The notes under the pieces are model-generated. The model saw only the letters and a list, made by a program, of their open reading frames with translations, made no database searches and was not told the origin of the DNA. This document shows, in pieces, positions 1 through 62,187 of a stretch of 64,000 nucleotides of DNA. Source of the stretch: Qipengyuania xiamenensis (GTDB taxonomy: Bacteria; Pseudomonadota; Alphaproteobacteria; Sphingomonadales; Sphingomonadaceae); contig NZ_JAIGNM010000001.1 in assembly GCF_019711495.1 (NCBI RefSeq), positions 558,001-622,000 of the forward strand, given 5' to 3'. The stretch's first letter is position 1. Every line of letters begins with the position of its first letter. A program made the position numbers and the translations under genes.

Positions 1-2265
1 GACGAAGGCAAGCGCGCGATCCTTGCCTCGGTGATCCGCGGCGAGGAATACGAGAAGTTCCTCGGCAAGAAGTACGTCGGCACCAAGCGCTTCGGCCTCG
101 ATGGCGGCGAATCCATGATCCCCGCGCTCGAAGCGGTGATCAAGTACGGCGGCCAGCTCGGCGTGCGCGAGATCATCTACGGGATGGCTCACCGTGGCCG
201 CCTCAACGTTCTCGCGAACGTGATGGGCAAGCCGTACAAGGTCATCTTCCACGAGTTCTCGGGCGGTTCCTCGAACCCCGACGATGTCGGCGGTTCGGGC
301 GACGTGAAGTATCACCTCGGCACCAGCACTGACCGCTCGTTTGACGGCATCGACGTGCACATGAGCCTCGTGCCCAACCCCTCGCATCTCGAGGCGGTGA
401 ACCCGGTCGTGCTCGGCAAGACCCGTGCACAGCAGGCCATTCGCGACGATCTCAAGCAGCACGAGCAGGTCCTGCCGGTGCTGCTGCACGGTGACGCCGC
501 CTTCGCAGGCCAGGGTATCGTGTGGGAATGCCTCGGCTTCTCGGGCGTGCGCGGTTACAACACCGGCGGCTGCCTGCACTTCGTCATCAACAACCAGATC
601 GGCTTCACGACGAGCCCGCAGTTCGCGCGCTCCTCGCCCTACCCCAGCGATGTGGCAAAGGGCGTCCAGGCCCCGATCCTGCACGTAAACGGCGACGACC
701 CGGAAGCGGTCACTTTCGCCTGCAAGTTGGCAATCGAATACCGCCAGACGTTCGGCCGCGATATCGTGATCGACATGTGGTGCTATCGCCGCTTCGGCCA
801 TAACGAGGGCGACGAACCGAAATTCACCCAGCCGCTGATGTATGACGAGATCCGCAAGCACCCGCGTGTGAGCGAGCTCTATACCAAGCGCCTCGAGAGC
901 GAAGGTGTCATCAAGTCGGGCGATGCCGACGCGTTGCGCAACGAGTTCGACCAGCACCTGGAAGACGAATTCGCAGCTGCCAAGGACTACAAGCCCAACG
1001 AAGCCGACTGGTTCGGCGGTCGCTGGGCGGGTCTCAACAAGCCCGCCGATCCCGAAACCGCGCGTCGCAATGTCGAAACCGGCATCGACCAGAAACTGTT
1101 CGACAGCCTCGGCCGGACGCTGACCACTGTCCCCGAGGACGTGACGATCCACAAGACCCTGGGCCGCGTGCTCAAGGCCAAGAAGGACATGTTCGACAGC
1201 GGTGAAGGCTTCGACTGGGCGACCGGCGAAGCGCTCGCTTTCGGCAGCCTCGTCACCGAAGGCTTCGGTGTGCGCCTGTCGGGCCAGGATTCGGGTCGCG
1301 GCACCTTCTCTCAGCGCCACGCCGTCTGGATCGACCAGAAGGACGAGCGCAAGTACATTCCGCTCACCACGCTGCCGCACGGCAAGTTCGAGGTCTATGA
1401 CAGCCCCTTGAGCGAATACGGCGTGCTCGGCTTCGAATACGGTTTCGCCATGGCGGACCCGAAGAGCCTTGTGATGTGGGAAGCGCAGTTCGGCGATTTC
1501 GCCAATGGCGCACAGATCATGATCGACCAGTTCATTGCAGCTGGCGAAGTGAAGTGGCTGCGCGCAAACGGCCTCGTGCTGCTGCTGCCGCATGGCTACG
1601 AAGGCCAGGGTCCGGAACACAGTTCGGCGCGTCTTGAACGCTTCCTGCAGCTGTGCGCGAACGACAATATCCAGGTCTGCAACATCACCACGCCGGCGAA
1701 CTACTTCCATGTGCTTCGCCGCCAGATGCTGCGTCCGTTCCGCAAGCCGATGGTCATCATGACCCCGAAGTCGCTGCTCCGTCATCCGCTGGCGAAGTCG
1801 ACGGCGGAAGAGTTCATGGGCGATCACCACTTCATGCGGATCAAGTCCGACATGACGGAGATCGACGACAAGAAGATCAAGCGTCTCGTCCTGTGCAGCG
1901 GCAAGGTCGCCTACGACCTGATGCAGCGCCGCGACGAAGCGGAATTGAAGGACGTGTCGATCGTCCGTATCGAACAGCTCTATCCCTTCCCCGGCGAACC
2001 GCTGGCCGTGCGCCTCGAGCGCATGACCAATCTCGAAGAGATCGTCTGGTGCCAGGAAGAGCCCAAGAACAACGGTGCATGGTTCTTCGTCGATCGCCTG
2101 ATCGAGGAAGCGGCAACCAAGGCAGGCAAGGACGGCATGCGCCCGACTTATGCCGGCCGCGAAGTCGCCGCATCACCAGCAACCGGCTTTGCCAGCCGCC
2201 ACCAGGTCCAGCAGGAAGCGCTCGTGAATATCGCGCTCGGCCTGAACGGCGGCACGAGCAACTGA
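1..2265 (+). CDS. sucA: 2-oxoglutarate dehydrogenase E1 component (5' end outside window)
   Basis: Thiamine-diphosphate E1 subunit that decarboxylates 2-oxoglutarate and passes succinyl to the lipoyl arm of SucB in the TCA cycle. The reading frame is open at base 1 (first codons read [10 protein letters not shown]), so the gene begins before the window. The visible 754 residues cover most of a protein normally about 930-950 long. Family landmarks include [14 protein letters not shown], the segment [12 protein letters not shown] with the TPP/Mg site nearby, [11 protein letters not shown], and the C-terminal transketolase-like half with [17 protein letters not shown]. It ends in TGA, and sucB follows after 28 bp in the same direction, so sucA-sucB-lpdA form the usual operon. 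The GTG at base 31 is an internal valine, not a start. Confidence 0.97.
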
Positions 2266-2293
2266 TCGAGGCCCGAAGAGGAAAGCAATCACC

Positions 2294-3520
<1,227 letters not shown>

Positions 3521-35073: not shown

Positions 35074-35544
35074 TTACCAGCGGTAGTGCGAGAAGGCGCG
35101 GTTCGCGTCCGCCATGCGGTGCGTGTCTTCGCGCTTCTTGACGGCGTTGCCGCGGTTGTTCGCAGCATCCATCAGCTCGCCCGACAGGCGTGCAGCCATG
35201 GTCGTCTCGGGACGACCGCGTGCAGCGCCGATCAGCCAGCGGATCGCGAGTGCCTGGGCACGCTCGGGGCGAACCTCGACCGGCACCTGGTAGGTCGCAC
35301 CACCGACACGGCGGCTGCGCACTTCGACCTGCGGCTTGATGTTGTTCAGGGCTTCATGGAACAGCTCGACCGGGTTCGTCTTTGCCTTGTTCTCGACGGT
35401 GTCGAGCGCGGTGTAGACGATACCTTCAGCAACGGCCTTCTTGCCGTCATACATGAGGTTGTTCATGAATTTCGAAAGGACCTGATCGTTGAACTTCGGA
35501 TCAGGCAGGATTTCCCGCTTCTCGGGACGACGACGACGACTCAT
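35074..35544 (-). CDS. rpsG: 30S ribosomal protein S7
   Basis: 156 residues starting [46 protein letters not shown], with [30 protein letters not shown]7 nucleates head assembly and in E. coli represses str translation. It follows rpsL by 24 bp. Confidence 0.98.
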
Positions 35545-35568
35545 TGATTATCTCCTAAGTCCCGTGGA

Positions 35569-35940
35569 TTACTTCGGACGCTTCGCGCCGTACTTCGAGC
35601 GCGACTGCTTGCGGTCCTTAACGCCCTGCGTATCGAGCACGCCGCGAAGGACGTGGTAGCGAACGCCGGGAAGGTCGCGAACACGGCCGCCGCGGATGAG
35701 CACAACGCTGTGCTCCTGCAGGTTGTGGCCTTCGCCCGGAATGTAGGAGATGACTTCGCGCTGGTTGGTCAGGCGAACCTTGGCAACCTTACGCAGAGCC
35801 GAGTTCGGCTTCTTGGGGGTCGTCGTATAGACGCGGGTGCAAACGCCGCGCTTCTGCGGGTTGGCTTCCATTGCAGGGACCTTGGACTTGGCCTTCTGCG
35901 GAACGCGGCCCTTGCGGACCAGCTGGTTAATAGTCGGCAT
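35569..35940 (-). CDS. rpsL: 30S ribosomal protein S12 with arginine at position 88
   Basis: 123 residues: [20 protein letters not shown] start, [26 protein letters not shown] and [21 protein letters not shown]12 monitors codon-anticodon pairing. K43 is kept, but the residue equivalent to E. coli K88 is Arg (CGC on the - strand at 35679-35677), a change that gives streptomycin resistance in E. coli. ATG 35940 is the family start. First gene of the str segment. Confidence 0.98.
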
Positions 35941-36313
35941 GAGTTCTCTCTTCACCGTGTGATGGCGGCGACTAGCGGGTTGACTGGTGATGCGATCGGG
36001 TTCGTGCAGTTGCGACGCACGCGGCGCTTAGAAGCACCGGGGCGGTCTGTACGCACGAGCCTGAAACGCTCCACCCATCGGCCCACACGGCCACCGGGTT
36101 ACTTTGACGGCTGCCCCGAGCGATCCATGAGGTTCGCTGCAATAGAAAAGAGCCTTATCGCGATTGCGACAGGCCCCCGGGTCATGACCGGCAATGTTCA
36201 GCTCTATCTGGCCGGAGTTGGCTTCGCGCAGGGCGATTCCCTCACCGGATGGGCGCGCACATAGTGCTGGAGGGGGAATTGGTCAAGGGAGGGGTGACGT
36301 GGCCTTTGCCAAG
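35941..36313 (-). other. 373-bp upstream region of the str operon
   Basis: No gene is visible here. It carries the str promoter (36258-36286) and then about 310 nt of leader before rpsL. Composition is like the chromosome. I see no riboswitch signature, and the left part only contains scattered small inverted repeats. Confidence 0.55.
36258..36286 (-). promoter_or_regulatory. Promoter of the str operon (rpsL-rpsG-fusA-tuf)
   Basis: On the - strand the -35 is TTGACC (36286-36281) and the -10 TATGTG (36263-36258), 17 bp apart. It lies only 28 bp past the stop of the accessory small gene, with no terminator between. Confidence 0.6.
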
Positions 36314-36895
36314 TCAAACGGACAAATCACCTTGACCACGGTTGTCCTCACCTCTTGGGATCTTGCGGAGTTCGGCACCTTGCCAGCTCAGAATATCGAT
36401 TTTCTCGTTGATCCAATCATCGATTCCTCCAAGGACTTGCCCAGATCCGACAGACATCTTGAGAAGCACCGGATCACTCGTTTCCGGTTCAGCAACCACC
36501 TCAGATTCGAAGGAAACATGGAATACGGCACGATCAGGCACTACCCCCTCCACCACGCCTGCCATGGCCATGTAATTGAGGGCCATGCCCTCAAATTGCT
36601 TTTTGGTTTTTACCCACTCTTTGTTCGTTAGCTTGGATTTCAATTCCACCACATGAAGAGTTGGCCGGTCGTCATGCGAGACTACGATTGCTGCGTCAGC
36701 GCAATTCCTACTCTTGCACCACCTCAACGACACTCGGTTATCTCTATGAAAGAAACCCAAGCTATCGGCCTCAACAGCGAAGGTAACGACCGCATCATCG
36801 CGACCGTCTACGCGCTCAATAACTTCGATATGTCCGTCAGACTGTAGGACATACCAATCATTCTCCAAGCGCGACAACTTGAATGAATCGAGCAT
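36314..36895 (-). CDS. Small protein with PD-(D/E)xK-like motif, partner of the adjacent ATPase
   Basis: 193 residues, no close family recognised. The central stretch CADAAIVV (D67) followed by LHVVELKSKL (E84, K86) and KTKKQFEGMALNY (Q100) has the spacing and strand pattern of a PD-(D/E)xK nuclease core: Asp, then Glu-x-Lys at the end of the next strand, then a helix with Lys/Gln. The N-terminus reads as a beta-rich region. Its ATG directly abuts the TAA of the ATPase gene (TAAATG), so the two are tightly coupled. GC is well below the flanking genes. A nuclease effector is inference; the pattern could also be a structural domain. Confidence 0.65.
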   Translation of the reverse strand: MLDSFKLSRLENDWYVLQSDGHIEVIERVDGRDDAVVTFAVEADSLGFFHRDNRVSLRWCKSRNCADAAIVVSHDDRPTLHVVELKSKLTNKEWVKTKKQFEGMALNYMAMAGVVEGVVPDRAVFHVSFESEVVAEPETSDPVLLKMSVGSGQVLGGIDDWINEKIDILSWQGAELRKIPRGEDNRGQGDLSV

Positions 36896-38281
36896 TTATT
36901 CTTGAAGTTCCATTACTTCGTCTACGAGATCGAACAAAGTTTGGTTGATACTATTCACCACGAAGCCCCCCTCTTTGAATGGCGCTTCTTTCACAAAACT
37001 TCGCCCATTGCCTTCCTCGAACTCGTATACCCTCACATCATCACGCCTCAATACGTCGTGCTTGGAGTATCCGAGCGCCTTCATCTTCGGTTGGGACAAA
37101 TCAGCCAAACGACAGAGTAAATTGATCTGCTGTATGAATGTGTCGCTGTGAGTGGTTGCCACGATAGGTCTGTCTGAATTTGCCAGCCGCGCTAAAGCAC
37201 GGGCCATACAGCGTTGAGCGCTTAGGTGGAGGTGCGCCTCTGGCTCCTCAATAATGATCCCGTCATAGCAAGGGCTAGCGCTTACTAGCGCAAGAAATGG
37301 CGTGAGCTCCGTAATCATTGACGAGACTGCGTGCATGGGCAGTGCGCCATCGAACTCCTTCGAGACAAAACGAAACTCTGGGACCCCTCGTCCAGTGATC
37401 GAAAGCTCGCCCCCGAAGATCGACCGCTCCAGAAATTCAACAATCTCCATGTTGAATCTTCCGGAATTGTCGCTCGATTGGATGAGATCCTGAATGAAAC
37501 GACTCATCGGAGCCGTAAAACGAGAAGAACGCCTTCGTGTTGATGTCGGCTCAGGATCAAACGCTGACGAGGCCAAATCACTAACGCTCAACACGAGTCC
37601 AGTACGAGCAGCAGGAAGATAAGTAGCCCTCATCCATTGCGCGTGCAGGTCTCCAAATATGATTTTTTCCACACACGCACGGTAGATCACGTCGTACTCA
37701 TTCGAATCTAGTCCAATTAGAGCACTTAAATTCTCTGCACTCCCACCCCCTTCTGCACTCCAGGAAAACATCCAAGAGCTAATGACATTAATAAAGTCGG
37801 ATTCACCAAGCTCAGCGCGAACCCACTCCGGTTCTTTTGACATTGCCTCTATGCAGATTTCAGACTTTGAGCGGAACTTTATCGACCCGACACGAAGGCT
37901 TTTGTGATTAAAGATTCGATGAGCAAACTTTTCAAAGTTTCGCGCCAAGAACCGATTGTAATGAGACAGAATCTTTTGACCAGATATCGAAATTTTTTCG
38001 TCAGGAGACTGTTTTGCTGAATCAAGCAAGTCCTTGAACCACTTAGGTGATTTGCAAAGATTCTCACCATTGTTGCCAAGCCCAAGAAAAGACGACCGGA
38101 CAGCCCACACGATATTGGCAAGATAGCTCTTTCCGGAGCTATTTTTCCCTACGAACATCACGAATTTGGAAAATTCTATTTCAGCATTTTTAATTTTTCC
38201 GAGGTCCTCGACGCTCATCACCGCAGAACCTTCCGGCGAATAACGAGCTCCTCGACTGTTAAGGCTGAGCATTTCGGGCAT
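36896..38281 (-). CDS. AAA/ABC-type ATPase of an OLD-like (AAA_15/AAA_21) family
   Basis: 461 residues. Walker A G45-K-N-S-S-G-K-S52 follows LGKIKNAEIEFSKFVMFVGKNSSGKS, and Walker B is GIIIEEPEAHLHL (about 341-353) with the catalytic E346. The H-loop TTHSDTF has H378. This single split ATPase head with a long helical insertion is typical of OLD-family and similar ATPases in phage-defence systems. The C-terminus (VRVYEFEEGNGRSFV, DLVDEVMELQE) has no TOPRIM domain, so the ATPase needs a separate effector, presumably the small downstream gene. The start is uncertain: ATG 38281 or ATG 38218 (MSVEDLGKI, with AAGG upstream). Lower GC than neighbours suggests transfer. Confidence 0.82.
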   Translation of the reverse strand: MPEMLSLNSRGARYSPEGSAVMSVEDLGKIKNAEIEFSKFVMFVGKNSSGKSYLANIVWAVRSSFLGLGNNGENLCKSPKWFKDLLDSAKQSPDEKISISGQKILSHYNRFLARNFEKFAHRIFNHKSLRVGSIKFRSKSEICIEAMSKEPEWVRAELGESDFINVISSWMFSWSAEGGGSAENLSALIGLDSNEYDVIYRACVEKIIFGDLHAQWMRATYLPAARTGLVLSVSDLASSAFDPEPTSTRRRSSRFTAPMSRFIQDLIQSSDNSGRFNMEIVEFLERSIFGGELSITGRGVPEFRFVSKEFDGALPMHAVSSMITELTPFLALVSASPCYDGIIIEEPEAHLHLSAQRCMARALARLANSDRPIVATTHSDTFIQQINLLCRLADLSQPKMKALGYSKHDVLRRDDVRVYEFEEGNGRSFVKEAPFKEGGFVVNSINQTLFDLVDEVMELQE

Positions 38282-38482
38282 TCTCGATTTCTATCCAAAC
38301 AACATGCTTGTGAAGGCTCGCACTACGGTATTTGACAGGGTTGGCAAACCCAGTTTGTCCCAGCCGCAATTCAGGAGAAAACCTTTCCATTGGCGATCTC
38401 TAAAAAGCCATTGGTCGGTAACAATCAGGATCAGGAGATCCCATTTTCCTACTTGGCCGGAATGTGCATCGTGGCTTGGGCC
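38282..38482. other. 201-bp gap between the ATPase module and the gene remnant
   Basis: AT-richer on its left part like the ATPase gene, then changing to chromosome-like composition near 38460. A promoter for the ATPase is expected here on the - strand, but I could not fix a convincing -35/-10 pair. The composition break marks a possible boundary of an inserted segment. Confidence 0.4.
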
Positions 38483-38865
38483 ATGACCGAAAGCACCCGC
38501 AAGCTCGCCCGCCAGGCCACCTCTGCCGTCGCGCATGTGGCACCTGAGCCCGAGGATGACGATCCCCTCCTCGCCTTCGCGCCCTTCATCCACTCTCACC
38601 CGCGGCGCAATTGACCGTGCGGTCAGCTTCGCTTCCGATTACGCCGCAGCTCCAGCGGCGCTTCGTCGCCACGCTGGCGGCCACCGGGATCGTCACGCAG
38701 GCGGCGCGCTCCGTGGGCAATAGCATGGAGGCGCTCTACAAGCTGTGGGCGCGGCTTGGGTCGGAAGGGTTTGCGGCGGCCTGGGACGCGGCGCTGGAGC
38801 GCGGGCTGCAGCGGCTTCGCGCTGGAGTTCCGTCTCGCCCGACTGGCCCTAGAACCAGGCCCTGA
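38483..38865 (+). pseudogene. Frameshifted remnant of a sphingomonad-type HTH-like gene
   Basis: Two adjacent + strand pieces appear to be one broken gene. The first (38483-38614) reads MTESTRKLARQATSAVAH and ends DDPLLAFAPFIHSHPRRN followed by TGA. The second, in another frame (38611-38865), reads ITPQLQRRFVATLAATGIVTQAARSVGNSMEALYKLW, an HTH-like segment, then AAWDAALERGLQRL before losing similarity. From memory of this family in Sphingomonadales, the acidic N-terminal part and the HTH-like part belong to a single protein. The C-terminal part is missing. Family identity is inference. Confidence 0.6.
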
Positions 38866-39832
38866 TGCCGAAGACGGCTGCCACGCCGTCCGGATCCTCG
38901 CCCGCGAGGCGCGCGATATCCGCGGTCTCGCCCAGCTTGGCCTCGTAGCCGACGCCGACATAGGGGGCGAACTCGCGAGCGATTTCGTAGCGCAGGCGCA
39001 GGCCCGTCTCGATCTTGGTGAGCCCTGCCCCGATCTCGCGTTCGGGAATGTCCTGTGCGGACAGTTCCAGCTCCACCCGAGGCTGCAGGATCAGGCGTTG
39101 CGTGATCTTCTGGTCGTATTCGCCCTCCAGCCGCGCGGTGAGGTCGCCGCGGTCGGACAGGAACAGCGCGCCGTCTACGTGCCACATATAGGGCGCAAGG
39201 CCCTGCACGCCGAGCACGAGGTGGCTGCGGGTTTCCGGCTCGAGATCGATGCGCGCGCCTGCCTGCAGGTCGAAAAAGGGGCCGATCGCATGGCCCCACA
39301 GCGCCTGTATCTCGGCGTCTTCGATACTCTCGCCGAATTCGCCCTCGCCTTCGGACTTGATCACGAACTTGTCGATATCGCCGCCGTACCAGCCCTGCAC
39401 GTCCCACAGGAACGCCTCGTGACCGTCGGAAATGCGCACTTCCAGCCGCTCGGCCATGAGGGTGCCGGTCAGCATGTCGCCGTGGGTGGCGTGGTTGGTC
39501 TTGCGAGCCCCGGCCATGGCTTCGGCGCCGAAGATTTCGTCGGCCGCGTGCTGCGGACCCTCGAACGCCTCTGCGGGCGGCGGGCCGGAGGGGAAGTCGC
39601 CCATGGCATGCGCCGAATGGTCCATCTGCGGCTTGGCGGTCAGGTCGGGGAGCTTGAACGGAGCGGGCGCCTTTTTCATCTCGCCGTGGCCCGAATGATC
39701 GTCCTTCGCGGGCTGCTCGGTCGCGGGCTTCTCCTCCTGCGCCCCGTGCCCTTCATGGCCCGACATGTCCTGCGCGGACAGCGGCGCTGCGGCGAGCGCG
39801 AGTGTGCTCGCAAGGCCGAGGCGGAGCATCAT
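38849..39832 (-). CDS. copB: Copper resistance protein B, outer-membrane
   Basis: 327 residues: signal peptide (ending PLSAQ), a His/Met-rich segment (DMSGHEGHG, DHSGHGEMKK, MDHSAHAMGDF), then a C-terminal beta-barrel-like domain of about 220 residues matching CopB/PcoB (HATHGDMLTGTLMAERLEV, RYEIAREFAPYVGVGYE) and ending in Phe, as outer-membrane barrels do. It works with the multicopper oxidase CopA in copper resistance. ATG overlaps the copA stop by 4 bp. Tail overlaps the gene remnant on the opposite strand by 17 bp. Confidence 0.93.
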   Translation of the reverse strand: MMLRLGLASTLALAAAPLSAQDMSGHEGHGAQEEKPATEQPAKDDHSGHGEMKKAPAPFKLPDLTAKPQMDHSAHAMGDFPSGPPPAEAFEGPQHAADEIFGAEAMAGARKTNHATHGDMLTGTLMAERLEVRISDGHEAFLWDVQGWYGGDIDKFVIKSEGEGEFGESIEDAEIQALWGHAIGPFFDLQAGARIDLEPETRSHLVLGVQGLAPYMWHVDGALFLSDRGDLTARLEGEYDQKITQRLILQPRVELELSAQDIPEREIGAGLTKIETGLRLRYEIAREFAPYVGVGYEAKLGETADIARLAGEDPDGVAAVFGIRAWF

Positions 39833-60714: not shown

Positions 60715-62187
60715 TCATTCGGAAAGCACCCGCTCAGCGGGGGCAAAGAACTCACACCGGAGCCCTCTGGGATCATAGTCCAAAATAACCTCGCAGCCGA
60801 ATTGGGAAGCCATGCTCTTTTCGATCATGAACGATCCAAAGCCGGAGCTGTCGGGGGCGACTACTTCTGGCCCGCCTGACTCGATCCACGTCAACTGAAG
60901 AAGTCGCCGATCGCCTTCATCCATTTCGCTCCAGGCGATCGCGACGTTCCCACTTTGGGTCGAAAGTGCGCCATACTTGGCGGCATTGGTCGCAAGTTCA
61001 TGTAACGCCAGTCCGAAACCCTGTGCAGCTGTCGCCTTTATCCTCGTGGGTGGGCCCGAAATCGTAATCCGGTCTCCGATCATGTGCTCGAAATGTCCCA
61101 ACTGAGAGCGGATCAGCTCATCAAATGGCACGTCCTCCCATGAGTTTTGTACGAGCACGTTATGGCTTGCGGACAATCCCGCAATCCTAGCCTCAAGTTG
61201 GGCTACATAGTCTTCAGGATTTCGCTTTGCAGTTTGACGAGCCAGAACTTGAACGACCGCGAGCACGTTCTTTGCGCGATGATTCATCTCATTCAAGATC
61301 AATTTTTCTCGCTCTTCCCTCGCGCGCCGTTCGGTCTCATCGGTGATCGAAGCGAAGAACACACCGCCTTCATCGGGAAAATATTGGAGTTGGACAGATA
61401 CGGGATATGTAGACCCGTCTTTCCTCATGTGAACTGTCTCAAACTGGAGAACCTCGACCTCACCGTTGAGCAGTGGTTCAACGAACGAGAGAAAATCCTC
61501 TTTCGAATATTCCGGCTTTAGGTCCCATGGCGTGAGGTTGCGAAGTTCCTCCATCGCGAAACCCAAGTTTTCCCGAGCACCCCGGTTCACAAGCTCGAAT
61601 TGGAACGATCGACTATCGAAGACGTAAGCCTCGCTAACGGACGCTTCGACAATCTTGCCCAGCCGTTCATTCAGTGATGCGGTTGCGAGGCGCTCAAGTT
61701 CAGCGGCTGCTCTGGCCGAGAAAAGTTCGACAATTTCCGTAACAGTTTTGGGATCCGAGAAAGGTGCATCGTCCATGACGGCAACCAAACCGAGAACGCG
61801 TCCATCAAGAGATCTTAAGGCCTTCCCGGCATAACTCTTTGCCTCGATTTCGACGAGCGTTTCGTCAAATGGATAGAGCTTCGTGATATCGTCTGCATAG
61901 CAACAGACACCTTGTGCCGCCACATCGGCACATGGCGTGTTGAGTAGGCCGTACACAAAATTATCGGCGGGACCGTGGTCCCAAAAGGCTATGGTAGTCG
62001 CTTCGTGTGGATTTGCAGGGTCAAACCGGCAAACAAAAGCCCATCTTATATTGAGGGCTTTCGCCAATCCTTCGACCACGACGGGGAAATATGCCTCTCC
62101 AACCACGCGTGACGTATCAGCAAGGATCGATAGAGCATTTTCGATCGTGGGCGAGTGCTGGGTTATGCTGGGATCGATACGGTTCAA
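60715..62187 (-). CDS. GAF-PAS-HWE-type sensor histidine kinase
   Basis: 490 residues without membrane helices: a GAF-like domain (about 18-170), a PAS domain (about 175-290), and an HWE-type kinase core with H303 in EMNHRAKNVLAVVQ, N-box HELATNAAKYGALS and the G1-type LTWIESGGPEV, including the W-x-E of this family. Cys95-Cys96 in the GAF could bind a cofactor. Such kinases often sense light, redox or general stress in alphaproteobacteria. No response regulator is adjacent. GC appears lower than flanking genes, and ATG 62187 has a clear promoter upstream. Confidence 0.9.
   Translation of the reverse strand: MNRIDPSITQHSPTIENALSILADTSRVVGEAYFPVVVEGLAKALNIRWAFVCRFDPANPHEATTIAFWDHGPADNFVYGLLNTPCADVAAQGVCCYADDITKLYPFDETLVEIEAKSYAGKALRSLDGRVLGLVAVMDDAPFSDPKTVTEIVELFSARAAAELERLATASLNERLGKIVEASVSEAYVFDSRSFQFELVNRGARENLGFAMEELRNLTPWDLKPEYSKEDFLSFVEPLLNGEVEVLQFETVHMRKDGSTYPVSVQLQYFPDEGGVFFASITDETERRAREEREKLILNEMNHRAKNVLAVVQVLARQTAKRNPEDYVAQLEARIAGLSASHNVLVQNSWEDVPFDELIRSQLGHFEHMIGDRITISGPPTRIKATAAQGFGLALHELATNAAKYGALSTQSGNVAIAWSEMDEGDRRLLQLTWIESGGPEVVAPDSSGFGSFMIEKSMASQFGCEVILDYDPRGLRCEFFAPAERVLSE

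Follow-up and report, generated by a model that had tools for sequence, protein, structure and literature searches.

A two-gene OLD-like ATPase and PD-(D/E)xK-type pair upstream of rpsL in Qipengyuania xiamenensis, a candidate anti-phage module on a separate branch

The gene pair and its two products

We analyzed a stretch of 64,000 nucleotides from Qipengyuania xiamenensis (contig NZ_JAIGNM010000001.1, positions 558,001 to 622,000; hereafter the window), in which two adjacent genes encode an OLD-like ABC ATPase (P0001) and a small PD-(D/E)xK-type protein (P0002). The features of the pair are as follows.

36896..38281, minus strand: ATPase gene (P0001), first of the pair; 461 residues, OLD-like ABC ATPase without TOPRIM
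38126..38149, minus strand: Walker A GKNSSGKS, residues 45-52; G45, N47 and K51 invariant in 7/7
37232..37249, minus strand: end of Walker B and next residues, EEPEAH, residues 345-350; E346, P347 and E348 invariant in 7/7
37142..37156, minus strand: H-loop TTHSD, residues 376-380; T377, H378, S379 and D380 invariant in 7/7
36314..36895, minus strand: small PD-(D/E)xK-type gene (P0002), second of the pair; 193 residues
36638..36697, minus strand: predicted catalytic stretch D67 to K86, from sequence and alignment

In the reading of open reading frames (ORFs), the TAA of the ATPase gene directly abuts the ATG of the small gene at the 36896/36895 boundary, and the two genes are probably translationally coupled. 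The guanine-plus-cytosine (GC) content of the pair was 0.486, lower than in all 582 sliding windows of the same size placed outside the pair (minimum 0.533, mean 0.625, standard deviation 0.023). Both the abutting codons and the lower GC relative to the flanks had been pointed out in an earlier note on this DNA, and both were found as described. We rejected the idea that the pair is a decayed insert, as its reading frames are intact and its motifs conserved.

The earlier note had also described the ATPase as OLD-like with intact Walker A, Walker B and H-loop but no TOPRIM, and this description held. These motifs are conserved in relatives, with K51 as the Walker A lysine, IIIEEPE (E345/E346) as Walker B, and H378 as the H-loop histidine. 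AAA_15 (1.7e-17) and AAA_21 (7.3e-11) were the sole Pfam families above cut-offs, and no TOPRIM was detected by Pfam above those cut-offs. The AlphaFold2 model (predicted local distance difference test score, pLDDT, 76.8; predicted template-modelling score, pTM, 0.81) stops about 80 residues past the H-loop. By Foldseek, the predicted fold resembles Septu PtuA, Rad50, RecN and SMC heads; the top rows in PDB were PtuA (E 1.2e-9) and Rad50 (1.7e-9), with template-modelling scores of 0.33-0.36 on the model. In PADLOC, the ATPase matched PD-T4-4_A (1.1e-28, 98.7 bits) and the ATPase model of PDC-M47 (8e-21). For scale, an Escherichia coli plasmid ATPase of the PD-T4-4 type scores 410 bits with PD-T4-4_A.

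In the small protein, D67, E84, K86 and W161 were invariant in 13/13 aligned partners (the window and 12 relatives). Q100, which the earlier note had listed together with D67, E84 and K86, was kept in only 9/13 and is not family-wide. The AlphaFold2 model (pLDDT 73.2, pTM 0.74) had a PD-(D/E)xK-like topology, in which D67 immediately precedes the strand 68-74 and E84-x-K86 lies on the strand 77-89. This topology is in line with the nuclease suggested earlier, but fold matches were weak: Foldseek against viral and PDB structures gave nothing at E<=0.001, and the list of weak matches contained N.BspD6I, FokI, PaqCI, BamHI and HamA of Hachiman. For this reason the fold was assigned tentatively, on topology, motif and kinship to a PD-T4-4_B-like group.

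Profile searches placed the ATPase but not its partner, since no model of Pfam, PADLOC or NCBIfam matched the partner at E<=10. PHROGs gave nothing for P0002 below E 0.3, and when PDB sequences were searched with the profile of the partner, the only match was an unrelated effector (E 0.68). Profile-profile comparison of the partner with the PD-T4-4_B-like group, on the other hand, gave an hhalign P of 7.7e-8, with a score of 56, whereas none of 100 column shuffles exceeded 17. D-[D/E]xK was invariant in 7 of the 8 compared groups of small ATPase-adjacent proteins. Judged from these profiles, the partner is homologous to known partners of the broad OLD-ABC ATPase plus PD-(D/E)xK kind. We also considered that D...ExK might have arisen by chance in a hypothetical protein; conservation in 13 sequences and in 7/8 partner groups opposes this.

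Conserved pairing and relation to named systems

Searches of 395 other genomes of the order gave no match, either with P0002 (E<=0.01) or with P0001 (E<=1e-10), which together with the GC of 0.486 argues for horizontal gain of the pair. Direct close-relative searches of viral contigs with both proteins gave nothing, as did direct searches of plasmids and phages with P0002. P0001 found four plasmid and three phage records directly, as partial matches covering 25-29% of its length. Relatives bearing the same partner type surfaced only through family and profile searches. The PD-T4-4_A model was matched in 17/299 genomes of the phylum; two of these, besides that of the window, carry pairs in which ATPase and partner are 28% and 27% (G471), or 26% and 25% (G475), identical to those of the window by blastp.

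ATPase relatives were taken from genome contigs (best 80 of 196) and viral contigs (39 loci). When 2957 ORFs from 144 loci were searched with a profile built from three partners, 18 exceeded the HMMER inclusion threshold. Each of these lay downstream of, and on the same strand as, an ATPase match, at spacings from a 32-base overlap to a 217-base gap (the widest, in L113); two of the 18 had been part of the profile. In a tree of 119 ATPases, the window ATPase fell in a 14-member clade (support 0.954), and 13 of these 14 ATPases have the same small partner type directly downstream. The 13/14 count is partly by construction, because the profile was built from clade members; the position of the matches is not. 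The exception is on a viral contig (L111, ATPase 2053-3486), where no partner was seen by eye in three frames within about 1 kb downstream. Two pairs (L109 and L110) are on viral contigs. The co-occurrence that the earlier note had expected is thus borne out, and the pair is conserved beyond chance.

The next node of the tree held 15 members (0.824), and the one after it, with 35 members (0.805), brought in the PD-T4-4 and PDC-M47 types; deeper nodes were poorly supported (0.394, 0.249). Going by sequence and predicted fold, the pair is a member of a kind already described, that of an OLD-ABC ATPase with a restriction-fold nuclease (PD-T4-4, PDC-M47, WonAB), and appears in the ATPase tree as a separate unnamed branch beside PD-T4-4 and PDC-M47. 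The earlier note had presented the pair as a candidate undescribed system, outside the named two-gene types. This went too far, because PD-T4-4 and WonAB are named systems of the same kind. What may be new is the separate branch, not separately named in the literature searched, and an effector missed by three annotation libraries.

Other ATPase-based systems are more distant. Septu and retron PtuAB share the ATPase fold (Foldseek E 1.2e-9) and the logic of an ATPase plus a nuclease. Their partner is an HNH nuclease, and "HNH nuclease" appears in titles of retron PDB entries in the Foldseek list; P0002, in contrast, had no PtuB or HNH match at E<=10 in Pfam and PADLOC. OLD, Gabija GajA and PARIS AriA share the ATPase domain family, as seen in PADLOC matches. 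AriA pairs with AriB, whereas P0002 had no AriB match at E<=10 in PADLOC. OLD has a TOPRIM domain in the same chain as the ATPase. The same is described for GajA (PMC10952713), whereas the window ATPase, with 461 residues and about 80 past the H-loop, has none.

PD-T4-4 came from a functional selection, according to Vassallo et al. 2022 (PMC9519451). It resembles the window pair in having two adjacent genes, an ATPase of about 460 residues followed by a protein of about 200 residues with D...[D/E]xK; the window ATPase matches its A model and the partners are related by profile-profile comparison. The window nuclease, however, had no PD-T4-4_B match at E<=10, whereas the partners in three compared loci (L003, L026, L027) do match, and the window ATPase is 24% identical to a PD-T4-4_A-type protein and joins PD-T4-4 and PDC-M47 ATPases no earlier than at the 35-member node. 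Because the B model is not matched and the ATPase clade is separate, we do not assign the pair to PD-T4-4. One PD-T4-4-type pair was seen in Vibrio phage 1.202.O (L026, 1990-4021; ATPase 6.4e-185 to PD-T4-4_A), with a CI repressor on one side and a gene annotated as a DNA breaking-rejoining enzyme on the other. PDC-M47, a PADLOC candidate, likewise shares the two-gene layout and the ATPase match but differs in its B protein (the window nuclease matches no PDC-M47B model at E<=10) and in the ATPase clade; no paper on it was found in the literature searched.

WonAB is described as an OLD-type ABC ATPase and a PD-(D/E)xK variant in one operon (PMC12137116). Its authors place it close to PD-T4-4 and to an "OLD-ABC ATPase + novel REase" operon derived in silico, which goes back to a survey of ABC ATPases (PMC12137116, PMC12409358). 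The residues mutated in that work have plausible counterparts in the window pair, by motif order only: WonA K34, R182, E300 and H333 would correspond to K51, R226, E346 and H378 of the ATPase, and WonB K71 to K86 of the nuclease. The proteins differ in that WonB is 16.1 kDa with the lysine at 71, whereas the window nuclease has 193 residues and K86, a comparison by description only (PMC12137116). A published wonA primer, scanned against viral contigs, gave no match.

The surroundings of pairs elsewhere were surveyed with PADLOC on ten neighbouring proteins picked by eye, one of which (L188) was a rescanned ORF from the interval upstream of rpsL. In a Faecalicatena metagenome-assembled genome (L029, 82-7015), the pair lies between two MTase_II (cytosine methylase) genes and a REase_II gene, and in another locus (L033) HEC-02 genes come after the pair. 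A RecD-like helicase (L109) and a methylase (L111) matched but are not defence-specific, and the picked neighbours in L030, L110 and L188 had no PADLOC match.

The interval upstream of rpsL

The pair is transcribed toward rpsL (ORF 35569-35955, minus strand), beyond which lie rpsG, fusA and tuf; these names are backed by annotated matches on Sphingopyxis and Sphingomonas plasmids. The other flank holds what we take from sequence to be copper-resistance-like genes. In a near relative (G684), blastn matched window 35074-36287 (96.2%) and 38846-39387 (95.0%) with 958 bp between the matches. These 958 bp hold two small genes, of which one is unknown and the other presumably cold-shock-like. The corresponding stretch in the window, defined by these blastn flanks and the ORFs of the relative, is:

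36288..38845, no strand assigned: stretch at the place of the 958 bp of G684

The interval (window 36056-38846) was then compared in 20 of 29 other same-genus genomes matching the rpsL stretch (loci L178-L197). Twenty ORFs picked by eye were scanned with PADLOC (E<=1e-4), and 11 of them, in 9/20 genomes, gave matches.

G696: PD-Lambda-5 A and B
G686 and G692: PifA
G691: ThsB
G689: CBASS cyclase with phospholipase
G221: PDC-S39
G218: PDC-S59
G687 and G303: weaker TIR matches (6.3e-9 and 1.6e-7)

Among ten other ORFs of the window none matched PADLOC, a control that is only rough because those ORFs are ordinary chromosomal genes. The rpsL-upstream interval of this genus is a hotspot for defence genes. 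Neither this site nor the branch of the pair was found described in the literature searched.

Several side observations were made at the site. Window 36056-36294 matches a second copy in two relatives (L151 3150-3385 and L152 3165-3398; about 235 bp), and second copies of about 80-145 bp occur in four others (G683, G689, G690, G693), all about 0.7-1.2 kb further out in the same orientation. Cassettes at the site may therefore have direct repeats on both sides. The window itself showed no second copy. By eye, 38480-38865 (plus strand) looks like a broken gene remnant in two frames, running into the copper-gene region. Its counterpart seems intact in three relatives (L184, L186, L197), in ORFs with ARQATSAVAHVAP-like starts.

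Rfam gave no match in 35900-39000 at E<=0.5. Promoter-like sites were fewer than in shuffles (1 vs 2.1) and terminator-like sites somewhat more numerous (6 vs 3.4, standard deviation 1.9); neither was used as evidence. GC drops a second time in the window, to 0.52, at 60715-62187 (minus strand), over an apparently ordinary gene that we assume from its sequence to be PAS/histidine-kinase-like.

Proposed mode of action and alternatives

We consider it likely that the pair is a two-gene anti-phage module, with an OLD-ABC ATPase as sensor and a PD-(D/E)xK nuclease as effector, acting by abortive infection. This is argued from the ATPase motifs and fold, the conserved D...E-x-K, the conserved pairing, the defence neighbourhood, and the tested kin PD-T4-4 and WonAB. 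The earlier suggestion of a probably anti-phage ATPase with a small PD-(D/E)xK-type protein is upheld by the motifs, pairing and neighbourhood. In such a module, the ATPase would dimerise through composite ATP sites, and its C-terminal extension would hold the small nuclease. Infection sensed by the ATPase would switch on the nuclease, which would cut a nucleic acid, and the infected cell would be halted before phage release.

ATPase-dependent activation, a complex through the C-terminal extension, and an abortive outcome would follow by analogy with WonAB (PMC12137116). As reported there, WonAB defence requires both genes and both activities, and WonB harms the cell only alongside active WonA. 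WonB causes growth arrest and translation inhibition with genomic DNA intact, and rRNA or tRNA was suggested as its target. From this analogy we lean slightly toward RNA rather than DNA as the nuclease target. A more far-reaching proposal, which we regard as rather doubtful, is that the pair may represent a separately evolving OLD-ATPase-controlled abortive type beside PD-T4-4 and WonAB, with an effector that cuts tRNA or rRNA and not DNA, and with cassettes exchanged between relatives at a site given over to defence, upstream of the rpsL (str) operon.

The pair might instead cut the DNA of invading phages or plasmids directly, sparing the host without abortion. Two points favour this: the weak fold list includes N.BspD6I, FokI, PaqCI and BamHI together with HamA of Hachiman, and the OLD-family relative GajA is reported to nick DNA (PMC10952713). 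On the other hand, the pair has no methylase gene for host protection, and WonAB, the best-studied kin, blocks translation without damage to genomic DNA (PMC12137116), so we regard direct cutting of invader DNA as unlikely. A toxin-antitoxin-like stability module, in which the nuclease is a toxin, the ATPase its neutraliser and the pair self-maintained, would fit the coupling of a small effector gene to a larger partner, the patchy occurrence, and the Pfam annotation of AAA_21 as "putative AbiEii toxin, Type IV TA system". We judge it improbable, given the defence neighbours in several genomes and the WonAB nuclease, which is toxic only with active WonA present (PMC12137116); the latter rules out simple sequestration in WonAB. 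That the pair is a housekeeping DNA-repair unit of a Rad50/RecN-like ATPase and a repair nuclease seems very improbable: the ATPase fold is like Rad50 and RecN heads, but a search of 395 other genomes of the order did not turn up the pair, which has low GC and lies in a variable interval.

The anti-phage module that we favour would extend a little-studied family of defence pairs formed by an OLD-ATPase and a small nuclease. As the effector was missed by Pfam, PADLOC and NCBIfam, such systems may be overlooked. With its catalytic residues aligned, the nuclease can be tested directly, and further defence systems can be sought at the rpsL-upstream hotspot of this genus.
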